Shown in pieces: positions 4,677 to 10,509 of a DNA stretch of 64,000 bases (within the stretch, counting starts at the first letter, position 1; each line of letters starts with the position of its first letter). Origin of the DNA: Prochlorococcus sp. AG-402-P18. GTDB taxonomy: Bacteria > Cyanobacteriota > Cyanobacteriia > PCC-6307 > Cyanobiaceae. The translations under genes were made by a program, and so were the position numbers. The stretch covers positions 1 through 64,000 of the forward strand of contig QCJC01000006.1 of assembly GCA_003216275.1 (NCBI GenBank). The letters are read 5' to 3'. Below the pieces are notes generated by a model. The model was not told the DNA's origin, did not search any database, and was given only the letters and a program-made list of their open reading frames with translations.

Positions 4677-5288
4677 TCACAAAGATGCTCGAGTTAAGGC
4701 CAGAGCCCAATTAGGAGAAGAATGGCTCACTCCTAAGAATTTTTTTGTAGAAGAAGAGTTGCATTTGGCTACTATTCCATTAGTAGGGAAATTTGAAAAT
4801 AATTCGTTATTAATCCATTGTGAATGCCATCTTTTTACCTGCTTAGGATCCTCTGTTCTAAGAGTAATAGGAACCTCAAATCCCCACTCCTGAAGTTGAG
4901 TCAAATCAGACAATTCGTCACTTTTTGAACTAAAGATTTGAAATGCAAGGAATAAAAGAGGTTCCTTAGAAACTTTCCCCACACTTAACGTTGATAGATT
5001 ATGAATATCATGAATTGAAGAATTAAGTATTGGTGAATACAAAACACCTTCTAACTCCACCTCAATCTTCAGGGAATCATCAATGCTCAATGGGATAGTA
5101 TTGATAATCCTAATATTTTCAACTATATCGTTGTTTACTCGAGAATAGGCATTTACTAATTGACCATATTTATACCTAAGACCTATTGCACAACCATCAA
5201 TTTTAGGTTGCACAACAATTGTTGATCCCTCCGGTAGTTTTTGCCACCAGTTAGAAAAACTATCTTTATCAAGCCCAAGGAGTCTCAT
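4677..5288 (-). CDS. stand-alone NAD-dependent DNA ligase adenylation-domain-like protein
   Basis: A 203-residue protein resembling only the nucleotidyltransferase core of bacterial LigA. Visible are motif I (QPKIDG, lysine near residue 29), a following YKYGQL strand, NTIPLSI like the LigA N-TI-IPL segment, EVELEGVLY in the place of the RGE motif, NGIVAK in the place of DGIVVK, and PNWALALT in the place of PRWAIAYK. The last-motif lysine is therefore replaced, and the NMN-binding, OB-fold, zinc, HhH and BRCT parts of a ligase are all missing. Ligation of nicks is unlikely; adenylylation of another substrate or nucleotide binding is possible. A more degenerate paralog lies at 9829-10509. Not truncated by the window, and no ligase fragment lies next to it. 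Confidence 0.7.
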   Translation of the reverse strand: MRLLGLDKDSFSNWWQKLPEGSTIVVQPKIDGCAIGLRYKYGQLVNAYSRVNNDIVENIRIINTIPLSIDDSLKIEVELEGVLYSPILNSSIHDIHNLSTLSVGKVSKEPLLFLAFQIFSSKSDELSDLTQLQEWGFEVPITLRTEDPKQVKRWHSQWINNELFSNFPTNGIVAKCNSSSTKKFLGVSHSSPNWALALTRASL

Positions 5289-5669
5289 ATATACATCAAT
5301 AGGAAAATGTCGAGGAAAGGTCCATCTTTAACTTCTTTTCTTAAGGAATCAAAAAATTACGCTTAAAAAACAACTGAAATGTTCGAGAAATCACAAAAAA
5401 AACTATTTAAGATCTACTTCAAGAATAGAACTGTCAATACCAAGGTAAGTTAATAGAAAAAATATAAGGCTGAATCATCTATGTTAAAATGAACTACGAG
5501 TGAAATCCTCCAAAAATATTTTTCGTTATTAAGATAAAATTAGGATTAATAAAACGATCAAAATAAGATAACTGAATAAATATTTCTAGATATTATATAA
5601 AAATACAGTATTTATTCTCATGTCTTGGTAAATAAATATGGCATATTTTACATAAGTATAATAAAAAGC
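5289..5669. other. intergenic stretch
   Basis: About 380 AT-rich bases between divergent genes, presumably carrying promoters for both. I see no distinct element. Confidence 0.4.
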
Positions 5670-5921
5670 ATGGCAATACTGGAGAAATATCCTGAAAATA
5701 TTCCATGGGATTTGAATACCCATCAGGAAGAATTCAAATCAATTCAATGGATGCTCACAAAAGCTGACAATGTTTACACTTTTACCAGGAGTCGCATAGA
5801 TGACAAATATGTCTACATACAAAAAAACGGTGGGAATAGAAAAGCCTTCAAAGAGTATGAGGCGCGTTTTACATATCAAAGATTGTTTGACGATGGATAT
5901 TTGCTAGCCGCAATCGCTTGA
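5670..5921 (+). CDS. small protein, first of a tandem paralog pair
   Basis: I chose the ATG at 5670 over one 15 codons earlier because the resulting 83 residues match the downstream paralog in length and start. Shared features are a KYPENIPWDL segment near the start and a YEARFTYQRLFDDGY segment near the end. It looks like a compact beta-rich domain. Conserved features suggest a real family, but I do not know its function. Confidence 0.7.
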   Translation: MAILEKYPENIPWDLNTHQEEFKSIQWMLTKADNVYTFTRSRIDDKYVYIQKNGGNRKAFKEYEARFTYQRLFDDGYLLAAIA

Positions 5922-5986
5922 TTAGAAAATATATCTTGACGTTGAAGATCATAAGTGTAGTCTAAATATATAGTTACTTTCAATAC

Positions 5987-6241
5987 ATGCCTAGGGTAAA
6001 AAGAGAGAAGTATCCTGAGAAAGCTCCTTGGGATTTAGGTCCATTGTCTGAGTATAAATCTCAAGAGTGCTGGAGACTCGTTCGTGGTTCTGAAATTGTC
6101 ATTTTCGCTAGAAAAGGAGAGGGTAACCACTACTTCATAATGCAAAGAGACGATAAAGAACCTATCGAAATACTTGCATTTCAGGCAAGACTTACATACC
6201 AACAACTTTTAGATAAAGGTTTCAAACTAGAGACATCTTAA
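5987..6241 (+). CDS. small protein, second of a tandem paralog pair
   Basis: An 84-residue protein sharing KYPEKAPWDL near the start and FQARLTYQQLLDKGF near the end with its upstream neighbour 65 bp away. The middle is diverged, which indicates an old tandem duplication. It is probably expressed with its neighbour. Function unknown. Confidence 0.7.
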   Translation: MPRVKREKYPEKAPWDLGPLSEYKSQECWRLVRGSEIVIFARKGEGNHYFIMQRDDKEPIEILAFQARLTYQQLLDKGFKLETS

Positions 6242-6567
6242 ATATTTACTTATTTAAACTGAACTATATCCAGAGGAAATAACATAATAGAAATATAAAA
6301 ACCAGAAGAAATCGTTGTTATTATTTGACAATATAGAGGAATTTGCTATTTAATTCATTTTTTTCATTTGGAATAAAACCATCGAAATCCTGGAATTTAA
6401 AAATGATAAAGAGTTAGAGAATGCTATAAATCTTTTAACCATTTAACTTAATCCAGATCAGATCTTTCTATCTAGAATTCATAAAATAAACTAAAATCTC
6501 TCGATAATAAATATAACTATGTAGTTATAATAATGTTTATGAGATAAAAAAATTAAGAACTTCTTAC
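6242..6567. other. gene-free stretch
   Basis: About 325 AT-rich bases between convergent genes. No strong terminator hairpin or other feature found by eye. Confidence 0.4.
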
Positions 6568-6762
6568 TTATGGAATAACCTTTTCAATACTATCAATTTC
6601 AGAATTAATACTTGGTTCAGACCAAATAGTCCACAGGAAGAGAATAGTAACTGGACAGAATAAAATGCCAATCAAAGGTGATAGATATTTAAGCCAATTT
6701 CTATTAATAGAAATATTTTGGATAAGTTTTTTGTTATAGTTAAATGAATGTGAATCATACAT
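6568..6762 (-). CDS. small membrane protein, 64 aa
   Basis: A basic N-terminus (about residues 1-25) precedes one long hydrophobic segment (LSPLIGILFCPVTILFLWTI) and a short acidic tail. This predicts a single-pass inner-membrane or thylakoid protein. No family recognised. Confidence 0.5.
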   Translation of the reverse strand: MYDSHSFNYNKKLIQNISINRNWLKYLSPLIGILFCPVTILFLWTIWSEPSINSEIDSIEKVIP

Positions 6763-7100
6763 AAGAAAGTGATTATGTAAATATAAAACCCTTCATCAAA
6801 TTTAGCATATTTATGAAATGATCACTAATACTTAATTGGTTTATGAATTTTAATTATCGTATTAAAGAAAACTATATCATTTGATACTTCTATATAACTA
6901 GAATATTAAAAGATTTGGATAAAGAATTTTTTAAGTCAATTATAAAATGAATGCTACTAGGGAATCAAAAGAAAGAATTCCTACAATATATAGTAATGCT
7001 AATAATTAGGATAAATAAAGCTAAGGAGAGTATCATTTGTATTTGGTAGCTTAGGTATTTATCAATTATTAAAGTACAATAAATATTTCATAAAAGATAG
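6763..7100. other. gene-free stretch
   Basis: About 340 bases between two small minus-strand genes. Stops are frequent in all frames and I see no structured element. Confidence 0.4.
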
Positions 7101-7229
7101 TTAAAATTTAGATACTTCTTTCAATTTATCAAGGCAATTTTTACAAAGAATTAATCCCTTTCTTCTCCAAGAAGATCCTGTAAATGAATGCCTACAGAGA
7201 TGACAATTAAAAGTTGTGTGAATTGCCAT
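7101..7229 (-). CDS. 42-aa zinc-ribbon-like protein
   Basis: Starts at the ATG at 7229. Two cysteine pairs (CHLC near residue 9 and CKNC near residue 29) are separated by a basic SWRRKG stretch, as in small zinc ribbons. A metal-binding or nucleic-acid-binding role is plausible but unproven. It sits upstream, in reading order, of no other obvious partner. Confidence 0.5.
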   Translation of the reverse strand: MAIHTTFNCHLCRHSFTGSSWRRKGLILCKNCLDKLKEVSKF

Positions 7230-7247
7230 ATCTATCTAATAATTAAC

Positions 7248-7358
7248 TTAAGCCCAATCTGTGTCTTCAAGTAGGCAAGAATAATCAGAAGAATCGAAAA
7301 ATGTATCTTCATTGAGAAGATCATCAACTTCTGCTCGTAGCCAATAACTTAATGCCAT
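7248..7358 (-). CDS. 36-aa acidic peptide downstream of the hli operon
   Basis: The ATG at 7358 gives 36 residues, strongly acidic and aromatic (YWLRAEVDDLLNEDTFFD). It starts 23 bp past the stop of the last hli gene on the same strand, so it may be the tail of that operon. No family recognised. Confidence 0.45.
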   Translation of the reverse strand: MALSYWLRAEVDDLLNEDTFFDSSDYSCLLEDTDWA

Positions 7359-7381
7359 TTGTTTTAAAAGAAGAAGAAAAG

Positions 7382-7501
7382 TTAAATAAAACCAGGAATA
7401 ATCCAGCCGGTAATACCATAATTAACAACAGCTGCTAATAAACCAATCATTGCTAAGCGACCATTCATTAATTCAGCTGTTTGCCAATAATTTTTGTCCA
7501 T
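7382..7501 (-). CDS. hli: high-light-inducible protein (Hli), 39 aa
   Basis: A one-helix chlorophyll-a/b-binding-type protein with the ELMNGRLAMIGLLAAVVNYG signature and the terminal GWIIPGFI. The Glu, Asn and Arg pattern forms the pigment-binding motif. Hli proteins bind chlorophyll and carotenoid in thylakoids and protect photosystem assembly under stress. Its ATG overlaps the TGA of the upstream hli by one base, so translation is probably coupled. A decayed relative lies at 63640-63740. Confidence 0.9.
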   Translation of the reverse strand: MDKNYWQTAELMNGRLAMIGLLAAVVNYGITGWIIPGFI

Positions 7502-7647
7502 CAAACAAAGCCAGGAATAATCTGACCAGTAGTGGAATATGCACCGATAAGTGCTATGCAACCAAATAGTGCCGCATAGCCGTTAAGCCTCTCAGCTATA
7601 ACTTTTTCAGAATCGATCTTACTTTGAGAATTGGAATTAGCAGTCAT
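7501..7647 (-). CDS. hli: high-light-inducible protein (Hli), 48 aa
   Basis: I used the internal ATG at 7647, which overlaps the preceding hli stop codon as TAATG. The protein has a polar N-terminus, then VIAERLNGYAALFGCIALIG and the ending TTGQIIPGFV. The pigment-motif Arg is replaced by Tyr (ERLNGYAA). It is very similar to the 48-residue gene just upstream, indicating tandem duplication. Confidence 0.9.
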   Translation of the reverse strand: MTANSNSQSKIDSEKVIAERLNGYAALFGCIALIGAYSTTGQIIPGFV

Positions 7648-7793
7648 TACACAACTCCAGGAATAATTTGACCGGTTGTTAGATATGCACCTATGAGTGC
7701 CCAGCATCCTACGAATGCAGCGTATCCATTAAGTCTTTCAGCAATAACTTTGCCTTCTTCGACTCTTTGAGTATTTGTGGTTTTGTTTTTCAT
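7647..7793 (-). CDS. hli: high-light-inducible protein (Hli), 48 aa
   Basis: Starts at the ATG at 7793, overlapping the upstream stop by one base (TAATG). It contains VIAERLNGYAAFVGCWALIG and ends TTGQIIPGVV. With its downstream neighbour it forms a recent pair differing mainly in the N-terminal tail. Expected thylakoid photoprotective role as for other Hli. Confidence 0.9.
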   Translation of the reverse strand: MKNKTTNTQRVEEGKVIAERLNGYAAFVGCWALIGAYLTTGQIIPGVV

Positions 7794-7912
7794 TAAACGA
7801 CACCTGGGATTAGTTGACCGGTTGTTAGATAGATACCTGTAAGAAGAACAAAAGCCATCATGGCTGGCCTGCCGATACTTCTTTCAAGAATAGTTTTGTT
7901 AGATGGTTGCAT
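7793..7912 (-). CDS. hli: high-light-inducible protein (Hli), 39 aa, divergent
   Basis: From the ATG at 7912 the protein carries ILERSIGRPAMMAFVLLTG and ends TTGQLIPGVV. The residue after Ser-Ile is Gly-Arg-Pro rather than the usual Asn-Gly-Arg, so this is a divergent member. Its stop overlaps the next start by one base. Longer upstream frames exist, but they run through the neighbouring hli and are discounted. Confidence 0.85.
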   Translation of the reverse strand: MQPSNKTILERSIGRPAMMAFVLLTGIYLTTGQLIPGVV

Positions 7913-7932
7913 TGTTGATAGTTGTTGTTGTT

Positions 7933-8133
7933 TTAGAAAATTCCAGGAATGATTTGACCAGTTGTGACGTAGGCGCCTATAAGACTGATCATTCCAACCA
8001 TGGCCCAACGGCCATTAGCTTTTTCAGCTTCTATTGGATAATTGGTGTAGTTTTCTACCAATTGTGGAGGAGTCTCACGAGCAAAAATATTTTGCTTGCC
8101 ATACTCAGTGATTATTTGAGATGAAGAAGACAT
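7933..8133 (-). CDS. hli: high-light-inducible protein (Hli), 66 aa with N-terminal extension
   Basis: Starts at the ATG at 8133. An N-terminal extension of about 35 residues contains SSQIITEYGKQNIFARE, followed by AEKANGRWAMVGMISLIG and TTGQIIPGIF. The same extension recurs in the 98-residue Hli at 17473-17769 and, decayed, at the right edge of the window. It lies 20 bp upstream of the next hli in the operon. Confidence 0.92.
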   Translation of the reverse strand: MSSSSQIITEYGKQNIFARETPPQLVENYTNYPIEAEKANGRWAMVGMISLIGAYVTTGQIIPGIF

Positions 8134-8141
8134 TTTTAGAC

Positions 8142-8249
8142 TTAAAAAATCCCAGGAATAATTTGACCAGTTGTTGCGTACGCACCAAAGGCAGCAACAA
8201 AGCCAAGCATTGCAGCCCAACCGTTAAACTTTTCTGCTTCAGGAGTCAT
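8142..8249 (-). CDS. hli: high-light-inducible protein (Hli), 35 aa, first gene of the operon
   Basis: A minimal Hli starting MTPEAEKFNGWAAMLGFVAA and ending GQIIPGIF. The Arg of the usual NGR is replaced by Trp. It is nearly identical to the 35-residue gene at 17778-17885, and in both places it is followed by a long-extension Hli, so this gene pair was duplicated as a unit. Confidence 0.92.
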   Translation of the reverse strand: MTPEAEKFNGWAAMLGFVAAFGAYATTGQIIPGIF

Positions 8250-8490
8250 GATAAATGTGAAATATTTATGTAAATAAATGTAACCGCATTGTTAAAGAAC
8301 GTAAAGGAGTATTAAGTACGGCTTGCCACATTATAAGACTGTTTTTGAAGCAATCGATACAAAATTAAGTTATAGCTGGATCTCGGAGGAGACAGAACGA
8401 CTCATGATGATAAAAAAACTTCTCATAAAAATGAACTTAAATACAAAAGTGTGACACTCTGTGTAGCTAATTTAATTCGTAATTTCAATT

Positions 8491-8769
8491 TCAACTAAAA
8501 AAAAAGTCTATCTCATTAGTTCTTAATCCATCCCAGCCGGCGTTTATCAATTTTGTATTGAGAGTTTCTTTATTAAAATGCTTAGAGCCTGTTCTCACAA
8601 TTCGGTTACGCATTGATTTCTTGACTCCACTTCTTTTTCGATCATTTTCTTTTGCCATCACCTCTCTATAAAGCGACAACATTTCTGAGGGGATAGGAGT
8701 TCCATCAAGATCCAATCCAGCTTCTATAGCTTTATCAATTGAATCAGGGCCTGAAAAATCCATAAACAA
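8491..8769 (-). CDS. small conserved-looking protein, about 92 aa
   Basis: An acidic N-terminal half (GPDSIDKAIEAGLDLDGTPI) is followed by a basic middle (NDRKRSGVKKSMRNRIVR) and a final GWDGLRTNEIDFFF. The start could also be the Met at residue 3. It looks soluble and cytoplasmic. I know of no assigned function. Confidence 0.65.
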   Translation of the reverse strand: MFMDFSGPDSIDKAIEAGLDLDGTPIPSEMLSLYREVMAKENDRKRSGVKKSMRNRIVRTGSKHFNKETLNTKLINAGWDGLRTNEIDFFFS

Positions 8770-8848
8770 ATCCCTTAATTATTCCATTGCTGTATTAAAT
8801 CTACATTAATTTTAGGATTAGCTCCAAAAATGATTAGAGAATTAAATT

Positions 8849-9481
8849 TTAAATTAAGCGATATATCACTGATAAATTGTTTGAAGGCATATCAATCAGG
8901 TTGTCTACTACAAATCCATTGTTAAGTCCAATTTCATTAACCATTTCTAGATGCCTAATACCCCACTCTCGATTTTGCAATTTTAAAGATTGATCAAAGT
9001 TTAAATTGCTTTGAGAAGTAGTTTTGTGCTTTCTGAAAAAAGGCCCATAAATCATCAAAAACTGATTTTTCTTCAAATATCTTTTAGATTCTTCAAACAA
9101 AGCTTTAGTACAAGACCATGGGGAAATATGTATAAGATTGATACATATAATCCCTTTAATTAATGAACTAAGTTCATTAGTTATCGGCCAAGGGCTTTTT
9201 TGAACATCTAGTGCAAGTGGTTCAGGCATTTTGGAAGATAGCTCCTGATGATCAATCCAAGAAATGATGCTTTTTCGATGTGTTTCTTCTGGATCACTGG
9301 TTTGCCAAATTATTGAAGGAAATAAGTCTTGAAAAAAAACTGCATGCTCTCCACTGCCGCTTGCTATTTCTAACAATACTCCGTTATCGGGAATGTAATT
9401 TTTCAAAACATCAGCAATAGAATTTCGATTCCTTAATGTTGCAGGAAAAAAAAGTCGATCATTTAAATATTTTTCCTCCAT
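8849..9481 (-). CDS. DUF938-family SAM-dependent methyltransferase-like protein
   Basis: A 210-residue protein with a class I methyltransferase motif I (VLLEIASGSGEHAVFF, about residues 35-50), preceded by the LNDRLFFPATLRNR segment typical of DUF938. The SDPEE segment fits the acidic loop after strand 2, and INLIHISPW fits the motif IV region. Substrate unknown. Its start lies 3 bp downstream of the stop of the zinc-ribbon membrane protein gene on the same strand, so the two form an operon. Confidence 0.82.
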   Translation of the reverse strand: MEEKYLNDRLFFPATLRNRNSIADVLKNYIPDNGVLLEIASGSGEHAVFFQDLFPSIIWQTSDPEETHRKSIISWIDHQELSSKMPEPLALDVQKSPWPITNELSSLIKGIICINLIHISPWSCTKALFEESKRYLKKNQFLMIYGPFFRKHKTTSQSNLNFDQSLKLQNREWGIRHLEMVNEIGLNNGFVVDNLIDMPSNNLSVIYRLI

Positions 9482-9484
9482 TAT

Positions 9485-9745
9485 TTACATAAAAGACATA
9501 AGAACTAAAGATTGAGAAATTGATGGTTTTTTTTCATTAGTAAAGTCTTTAATGACAAACACAAACATTGCTAGTAATGGAGCTATAAAAGCAGAAGCTA
9601 AGAGTAATCCAAATATTTGTTTTGTATTTAGTATAGATTTCTTCATCAACGGGTCTCCGCACAGTCCGCATATCAATACCCCATCAGTCCTAGTCTTTTG
9701 AAATTTATAACGAGAAGAACAGAAAGGGCAATAATAACTACTCAT
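9485..9745 (-). CDS. zinc-ribbon membrane protein, 86 aa
   Basis: An N-terminal four-cysteine ribbon (CPFC near residue 6, CGLC near residue 26) is followed by one hydrophobic helix (IFGLLLASAFIAPLLAMFVF) and a polar tail. It is probably membrane-anchored with a cytoplasmic zinc finger. The upstream gene of a two-gene unit with the DUF938 methyltransferase. Function unknown. Confidence 0.7.
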   Translation of the reverse strand: MSSYYCPFCSSRYKFQKTRTDGVLICGLCGDPLMKKSILNTKQIFGLLLASAFIAPLLAMFVFVIKDFTNEKKPSISQSLVLMSFM

Positions 9746-9828
9746 TTCTAACCTTAGTTCAATATATATCTATAATAATTTTGTGTAAGTGTGGAAACTA
9801 CATAAATTAAAGAATTGAAGAATAAATT

Positions 9829-10509
9829 ATGAATCAAAGTACTGATAAGTTTGCACACATAAAGAAGAATCTGACAAGAATCTCTAGCCAGCAATCAATC
9901 TTTAATTACGAACCTGGAAAGAAAGCTTTCTTATCCTTAGGGCAAGGAAATTTAAATGAATGGCTAGAGATGCTACTGCCAAATACAAGATTAATTTTAG
10001 AACCAAAAATTATTGGTTCAAACGTTGGTATTCAATATATAAATGGAAAATTAAATAAAGCGATAAATAAAAGTAGTGTTGACAAAACAGAAGAAGTCAA
10101 ATCTCTAATTAATCTTCCTAAAAGGATAGCGATCAAAAATAGATTAGAAATACAGGGAGTAATATTCGACAATGAAAATAAATATAATAAAAAAGAACTA
10201 TGTACTCGAAATAAAGAATTTCTAACGGATTTCAAAGAGCCTAAATTCTGTGCATTCCAAATATTCCATTGCAAAATAAATCATTTCCAGACCCTTCAAG
10301 AACTTAAAAATCTTAATTTTGAAGTACCACAGACTCATTTTACTAAAAACACGTCAGACATTGAGATCTATCGTCAATGCTGGAGGGAAGGTAAATTATT
10401 CAATAGCTATCCTACCTGTGGGATAGTATTAAAAATAAATTCAAGGAAATTGCAAAAGTCCTTAGGAGAAAATAGTCTGGCTGTAAATTGGGCTCACACA
10501 ATAAATTAA
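9829..10509 (+). CDS. degenerate paralog of the LigA-adenylation-domain-like protein
   Basis: A 226-residue protein that aligns by eye with the gene at 4677-5288. Shared landmarks are LEPKIIGSNVGIQY (lysine near residue 60, but KxDG has become KIIG), NRLEIQGVIF, CAFQIF, LNFEVP, TCGIVLKIN and VNWAHTI. Loss of the motif I Asp and of the final-motif Lys makes nucleotidyl transfer doubtful, while the overall fold seems kept. A basic N-terminal extension of about 30 residues is specific to this copy. It may be a binding-only or regulatory partner of the other copy, which is inference. Confidence 0.6.
   Translation: MNQSTDKFAHIKKNLTRISSQQSIFNYEPGKKAFLSLGQGNLNEWLEMLLPNTRLILEPKIIGSNVGIQYINGKLNKAINKSSVDKTEEVKSLINLPKRIAIKNRLEIQGVIFDNENKYNKKELCTRNKEFLTDFKEPKFCAFQIFHCKINHFQTLQELKNLNFEVPQTHFTKNTSDIEIYRQCWREGKLFNSYPTCGIVLKINSRKLQKSLGENSLAVNWAHTIN

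Follow-up and report, generated by a model that had tools for sequence, protein, structure and literature searches.

Why should a Prochlorococcus genome that has a complete NAD-dependent DNA ligase (LigA) also encode two separate proteins resembling only the adenylation domain of that enzyme? The question is raised by the window analysed here, the first 64,000 nucleotides of contig QCJC01000006.1 of Prochlorococcus sp. AG-402-P18 (assembly GCA_003216275.1), which contains two stand-alone relatives of the nucleotidyltransferase (NTase) core of LigA, here named gene A and gene B (Table 1). The single full LigA of this genome, 692 aa, is encoded on another contig. Our analysis indicates that A and B are probably independently decayed, host-retained copies of a picocyanobacterial NAD+-type ligase head, consisting of Ia-like helices and the NTase core, that is borne on genomic islands. 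The members that look active appear to be other genes: one that we call type C, found in the same genus, and a gene of 249 aa in high-light (HL) Prochlorococcus. Genomes and loci are cited by our own G and L numbers.

Both open reading frames (ORFs) reported in an initial annotation of the window exist, with the qualification that the first lies on the minus strand, and its assignment of both to the relatives of the NAD-ligase adenylation domain is borne out by profile search. Against the Pfam model DNA_ligase_aden (PF01653; cut-off 27 bits), gene A scores 72.6 bits (E 4.8e-20) and gene B 45.2 bits (E 1.1e-11), which excludes chance similarity; matches of both to the NCBIfam LigA models fall far below the cut-offs of those models. 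The KIDG motif of gene A, the KIIG motif of gene B, the GIVAK/GIVLK motif, and the NWA segment are present as described. A Pfam scan found none of the OB, Zn, HhH, and BRCT domains in gene A, and nothing in gene B beyond the adenylation domain except weak, unrelated matches, in agreement with the claim that all other ligase domains are lacking. No ortholog fused to OB, HhH, or BRCT domains was seen, which supports the proposal of a separate family rather than truncated ligases.

Table 1. Positions in the 64,000-nucleotide window of genes A and B, their nucleophile-column codons, and a marker gene
Feature	Position	Strand	Description
Gene A	4677..5288	minus	203 aa; stand-alone NTase core, KIDG in window genome, degenerate active site, without Ia helices
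Codon of gene A Lys29	5202..5204	minus	column of LigA nucleophile K115; K in 26/26 orthologs
DUF938 gene	8849..9481	minus	conserved marker of gene B locus; PF06080 E 2.4e-65
Gene B	9829..10509	plus	226 aa; stand-alone NTase core, short N-terminal remnant, KIIG, degenerate active site
Codon of gene B Lys60	10006..10008	plus	column of K115; K 18/20, R 1, E 1

An AlphaFold (AF2) model of gene A, built from a 26-row alignment, has a predicted local distance difference test score (pLDDT) of 88.5 and a predicted template modelling score (pTM) of 0.85. LigA structures were its top Protein Data Bank (PDB) matches in Foldseek (best E 2.0e-14, TM by query about 0.74 to 0.85), so that the structural match to the NTase fold was found. 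The model of a type C protein (pLDDT 90.0, pTM 0.78) is likewise closest in the PDB to LigA structures (best E 3.8e-21); its root-mean-square deviations from them are high, mostly 8 to 15 Å, which we take for a different set of Ia helices. The nearest known counterpart in fold is the Ia and NTase part of bacterial LigA (PF01653; e.g., PDB 2OWO, 5TT5, 7K72). Gene B was assigned to the NTase fold by sequence alone, the structure models being those of gene A and one type C protein.

To read the active sites, we aligned 26 gene A, 20 gene B, 40 HL-type (the first of 96 distinct), and 7 type C sequences with the LigA of the window genome, and read the columns at the residue positions of Escherichia coli LigA, whose residue numbers and roles are used here. 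The K115 column holds lysine in every gene A ortholog and, apart from one arginine and one glutamate, in gene B (18/20), so that the lysine sought in orthologs from other picocyanobacteria is kept throughout for A and incompletely for B. The D117 column is variable in gene A (D in 14/26, E in 8, A in 2, V in 2), and KIDG is thus variable among its orthologs; in gene B no sequence of the 20 has D there (I in 19, N in one). R136 is kept in 26/26 A and absent from all 20 B (K in 15, E in 5). The initial annotation had both genes keeping the glutamate of the RGE motif; this does not hold, because the E173 column holds V or I throughout (26/26 A, 20/20 B), and the glutamate present in gene A sits two positions before it, in the arginine column of RGE. 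At D285, the DG-motif aspartate, every gene A sequence (26/26) has N, and 19/20 B have N, S, C, or R (the remaining one has D). The loss of the last-motif lysine in both genes was correctly noted: K314 is replaced by T in 26/26 A and by N in 17 B, with a gap in 3. K290 is kept in 26/26 A and 20/20 B, and W309 in 26/26 A. Gene A lacks the Ia helices, and those of gene B are a vestige without the full nicotinamide mononucleotide (NMN) site, Y22 and H23 being absent and D32 replaced.

All 7 type C and all 40 HL sequences, by comparison, keep K115, D117, R136, E173, D285, K290, W309, and K314, and have the Ia residues of the NMN site as Y22, R for H23, D32, F35 (rarely Y), and D36. R200 and R208 were misaligned in the large alignment; when the intact members are aligned alone, R208 is kept and R200 is a gap. 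Simple motif patterns are present in 76 to 80 of 80 named HL loci. Among 25 copies from islands and related loci checked at the catalytic columns, the full set was found in L078 (two copies), L079, L081-L084, L088, L243, L244, L251, and L252; it is partial in L085 and L091. The intact members thus share with LigA K115, D117, G118, R136, E173, R208, D285, K290, K314, Y22, D32, Y35 (as F, rarely Y), and D36, and differ from it in having no OB, Zn, HhH, or BRCT domain, in R for H23, and in gaps at R200 and D138/G139; A and B differ further in lacking the Ia residue set, E173, D285, and K314. Given these losses, both A and B look catalytically dead by their residues, and ligase chemistry as known should not be expected from either.

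The window's genus was sampled with 41 genomes, which we take as low-light clade I Prochlorococcus. Gene A orthologs occur in 27 of them, with one further fragment at a contig end, and B-like copies in 27, one with two internal stops. Type C is represented by nine copies in eight genomes, at 42-44% identity to gene A. More widely, a single-protein query matched 24 of 151 genomes of the family at 1e-7, and a 22-row profile matched 275 of 399 genomes of the order at 1e-14; order genomes with a best E of about 1e-15 to 1e-26 are taken as having LigA only, since genomes in the same range (e.g., G031) show only ORFs of LigA length. In a phylum sample of 386 genomes, 58 matched at 1e-28: 20 from the window's family, with stand-alone ORFs, and 38 from outside it, with ORFs of LigA length (657-705 aa). 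In that sample the stand-alone family is seen only in picocyanobacteria, the window's family. A scan of the genome collection with a 7-row alignment gave 417 relatives, the best 80 of which are all HL-like. The genus of G133, which we take to be HL Prochlorococcus through its relatives MIT 9401 and MIT 9314, presumed to be HL strains, carries at least one family member in 86 of 87 genomes at least 90% complete.

Phylogenetic analysis groups gene A with a partly decayed gene of G034 (support 100/98), which stands at the base of A, and places A beside type C (94/67). Gene B lies across a 99/99 branch, with the G092 gene, the HL genes, and other decayed genes. Being apart on the tree, A and B are not a matched pair by descent, and the suggestion of one active and one inactive partner fails on this count as well as on the catalytic residues. 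Rather, catalysis seems, on these sequences, to have been lost independently in the two lineages from which A and B derive. In a second tree, 13 intact or nearly intact family members split from 11 LigAs (one from a phage) at 100/100; this split and the intact LigA elsewhere in the genome led us to reject a truncated host ligase as an explanation.

Whether the two decayed genes are still maintained was judged from Nei-Gojobori ratios of nonsynonymous to synonymous substitution rates (dN/dS), with orthologs required to pass an identity cut-off (50-75%) and to reach 90% length. Median dN/dS is 0.138 for gene A (26 sequences), 0.376 for gene B (20), 0.191 for the DUF938 neighbor (22), 0.130 for HL (first 40 of 96 distinct), and 0.205 for type C (7). 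Gene A is thus strongly conserved as a protein, under purifying selection, despite its lost catalytic residues, and gene B is under weaker constraint. If A and B were simply functionless leftovers of old island insertions, the loss of catalytic residues from both and the higher ratio of gene B would be accounted for. The DUF938 gene beside gene B fits as well: it recurs at B loci (e.g., L058-L076), at L046 (G124) beside a partly degenerate family member, and at L088 (G092) near the C-terminal remnant of a recombinase and an intact family gene, a neighborhood that bears on the origin of gene B. We nevertheless find plain decay unlikely, because the gene A ratio lies below that of its DUF938 neighbor, N285 and T314 are fixed in 26/26 gene A orthologs rather than scattered, and among the 17 genomes of the genus at least 90% complete A and B occur together in 15 and are both absent from the other two (G014, G031). 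Between genes A and B, window positions 7501-8220 hold three short minus-strand ORFs, the ends of which we presume to be of the high-light-inducible type, together with other small genes.

The link of the family to islands comes from the surroundings of the intact members. L078 (G007) contains two type C copies, 11 kb apart. One shares 4 bp with the end of a tyrosine recombinase gene; the other and a second recombinase gene are divergent across a tRNA-Pro half. The same 4-bp overlap occurs in L081 (G030). In L083 (G016) a divergent recombinase lies across a tRNA-Pro half on one side and a recombinase remnant on the other; remnants stand beside the family gene in L079, L080, L083, and L088. The arrangement extends beyond the genus, with a recombinase followed by the head gene 18 bp away by match in L244 (HL genome G316), and a head gene divergent from a recombinase across a tRNA-Pro half in L240 (genus g46, Synechococcus-type). 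In L079 and L082, ARAGORN detected an intact tRNA-Pro(TGG) that immediately precedes the head gene, and the exact 3' 44-46 bases of this tRNA, from the anticodon loop on, were found in L078 (two), L083, L240, L244 (three), and L259. Shorter or mismatched parts occur in L080, L081, and L091/L250. In six HL genomes (L095, L245-L249), the 5' 42 bases of tRNA-Pro lie 70 bases upstream of the head gene; a spacing of exactly 70 bases was dropped for the low-light loci, where distances run from the start of the tblastn match rather than from the ATG. In L079, the segment separating the tRNA from the head gene contains a hairpin with a T run after it (z -2.9), perhaps the terminator of the tRNA. Several tRNA-Pro parts lie in single stretches at L244 (543, 8466, 12893) and L250 (25, 477, 15723, 17436), as if islands were stacked at one attachment site.

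Counting over 16 distinct rows nearest type C, a tRNA part lies within 3 kb in nine and a recombinase, remnants included, in seven; tRNA-Pro parts within 3 kb also occur at seven HL-type rows and recombinases also at L244, L088, and L259. A rough calculation from 83 PF00589 matches in 41 genomes (about 62 Mb from rounded sizes) puts the chance of a recombinase within 1 kb of a given gene at about 0.3%, and two of the nine type C copies (the second copy of G007 and that of G030) have one. Neither a tRNA-Pro part nor such a recombinase was found in the stretches read around 19 A-like rows, 26 B-like rows, and 80 named HL loci, and the 64-kb window contains no tRNA, no tRNA-Pro part, and no such recombinase. 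Islands of this kind, the tycheposons, are reportedly the subject of Hackl et al. 2023. The tRNA-Pro halves and recombinases found here are marks of tRNA-integrating, tycheposon-like islands, which would be mobile. With tycheposons, described in PMC10872708 as tRNA-integrating islands with a tyrosine recombinase known from Prochlorococcus, part of the type C and HL-type members share tRNA parts, tyrosine recombinases, and the organisms themselves; A and B differ in carrying no island marks today.

Several observations weigh against an island-borne origin or against activity of the intact form. The 249-aa gene of HL genomes has a fixed place near purK, in 70 of the 75 loci that extend 3 kb in that direction, and none of the 80 named loci has island marks. 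It is intact without a tRNA part or recombinase within 3 kb, as are L251 and L252, and in L243, also intact, the nearest recombinase is 4.8 kb away. Among the type-C-like rows that miss these marks, three are on contigs under 5 kb. The recombinases were identified by mutual homology and a motif; two score 26.6 and 22.3 bits (Pfam cut-off 27.1), and three longer ones have no Pfam match. Even intact members have gaps at the R200 position and at D138/G139, and R in place of H23. K290 is lost from two island-linked subtypes, a further difference from LigA, so that the full catalytic set is not retained by every island copy. Q takes its place in L092, L240 (two), L241, and L242, which are of Synechococcus type, and T in L245-L249, the five copies checked of the HL type that occurs with the 5' tRNA part in six genomes, and likewise in L095; L080 is interrupted by stops in the frame read. 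Finally, the support joining A to type C is just 94/67, and the deep branches are long enough for the tree tool to warn of false long-branch joins.

The fixed HL gene also bears on function. Without island signs it points to a use for the host, so that an intact member can be of use to its host even where no recombinase is present. An intact member might then be a host enzyme of another kind, adenylylating a protein, RNA, or small molecule or splitting NAD+, with island linkage a matter of cargo. The fixation of the HL gene near purK, with no island signs around it, is what this explanation has in its favor; random cargo is difficult to reconcile with the 4-bp recombinase overlap at two loci and with the position at the tRNA part in low-light, HL, and Synechococcus-type genomes, and we consider a host enzyme of another kind unlikely. 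A defence system was rejected after comparison of four proteins with the PADLOC models, the only match being one of 12.3 bits (E 0.018) for the HL copy. In L139-L218, an ORF of 68 aa stops immediately ahead of the HL head gene, its TAA being followed by the ATG of the head gene in the six loci inspected, and a homolog occurs in 79 of the 79 loci with enough sequence. A second HL paralog (L094, 5084-7257), partly degenerate (N285, E314), adjoins a gene for a photolyase flavin adenine dinucleotide (FAD)-binding domain and a short-chain dehydrogenase gene.

Could the head be one half of a split ligase, working with a separate OB/HhH/BRCT subunit or borrowing the domains of LigA? Precedents exist among phages, since in the NAD+ ligases of T5-like phages and of PR1 (PHROG 3359; PDB 9hu3, 9i5i) the adenylation part is also a separate protein: phage My1 encodes its NAD ligase subunits A and B as neighbors, and the solved PR1 heterodimer matches the models of both gene A and type C. 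The window genome, moreover, encodes a two-BRCT protein elsewhere. In contrast to My1, with its second subunit next door, no separate OB subunit was found for the present family. In the 41 genomes of the genus, the OB domain (PF03120) occurs once per genome, in LigA-type ORFs of 405-709 aa, in 34 genomes, and nowhere outside such ORFs; the seven genomes without a match are all less than 90% complete. None was detected in 31 HL genomes, the positive controls being found in 11 of 14. No OB-domain partner was thus found in the genus or the HL genomes, nor among ten neighbors in the window scanned with Pfam. Nor can the HL head protein depend on the other domains of LigA where there is none: a LigA query found no LigA in 23 of 25 HL genomes, which showed weak head-family matches or nothing, in the genus where 86 of 87 genomes keep the family. 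These results make a split ligase very unlikely. The two-BRCT protein (L286, 2767-3705; G000 contig C17, about 11.8-12.7 kb) has 312 aa, two segments of which match the BRCT end of the genome's own LigA at 54% and 50% identity. Its gene is clustered with others of unknown function, one of them containing repeated units, and six other low-light genomes compared showed no comparable match.

LigA was present in two of the HL genomes tested, G422 and, in pieces, G338, and in seven of seven low-light genomes tested as well as in G092, G299, and G085. An ATP-dependent ligase (frame 440-452 aa) was found in 20 of 20 HL genomes, and a PF01068 match in none of 12 low-light genomes. It looks as though the replicative ligase had been exchanged within Prochlorococcus, NAD+-dependent LigA versus the ATP-dependent enzyme.

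A viral origin of A or B was considered and rejected: two IMG/VR scans with single A or B proteins gave no relative, single proteins finding close relatives only. In a phage collection, 280 records match gene A, all at less than 60% identity, and the annotations among the 20 matches listed are NAD ligase, plain DNA ligase, hypothetical protein, or none. In the literature, PMC3686209 names an NAD-dependent DNA ligase as one of the DNA-repair genes that are over-represented in samples from the Red Sea and HOT, and PMC11357015 lists an NAD ligase match of viral families in low-light genomes; either might be the stand-alone head family, though the passages do not identify it as such. No description of a stand-alone head protein was noticed in a search of the open literature, conducted mostly at the level of listings.

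On the interpretation of A and B as separately decayed island heads, the intact members would often be genes of islands integrated at tRNA-Pro, lying near the attachment site, a tyrosine recombinase, or both. An intact member would load AMP from NAD+ onto its lysine; since it has most of the residues that LigA uses in its first step, we expect on balance that this lysine-AMP is formed. The AMP could then be used at a broken or recombining DNA end during island integration, excision, or replication, without OB or HhH domains. The overlap with a recombinase gene and the place at the attachment site are the grounds for a role at DNA ends or strand junctions in island movement or replication, which we put forward tentatively, leaning somewhat against it. 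Gene A would perform no chemistry and, with its basic pocket (K115, R136, K290) and W309 kept, would act by binding, its target being a nucleotide, a DNA end with a 5' phosphate, or the recombinase complex, and may damp incoming islands. A binding-only role is the simplest account of conservation without catalysis and in our judgment has an even chance of being right; control of incoming islands by gene A is doubtful. Gene B may be disappearing or may have a weaker role of the binding type. The most extended version, in which a minimal NAD+-consuming adenylyltransferase partners tyrosine recombinases on tRNA islands, dead host copies, A above all, antagonize or regulate those islands, and the intact HL protein outlived LigA, seems to us quite improbable as a whole.

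The HL head protein may, we guess, carry the annotation "NAD-dependent DNA ligase"; this possible misannotation and the 23 of 25 HL genomes without LigA mean that statements about the replicative ligase of HL Prochlorococcus deserve a second look. In this family, the first module of NAD+ ligases stands by itself as a protein, linked at many loci to site-specific recombinases, and no OB-domain partner was found for it. If gene A acts by binding alone, it would be a clear case of an enzyme turned conserved nonenzyme, and if the intact form works, horizontal transfer in Prochlorococcus would be employing ligase chemistry in a new way.

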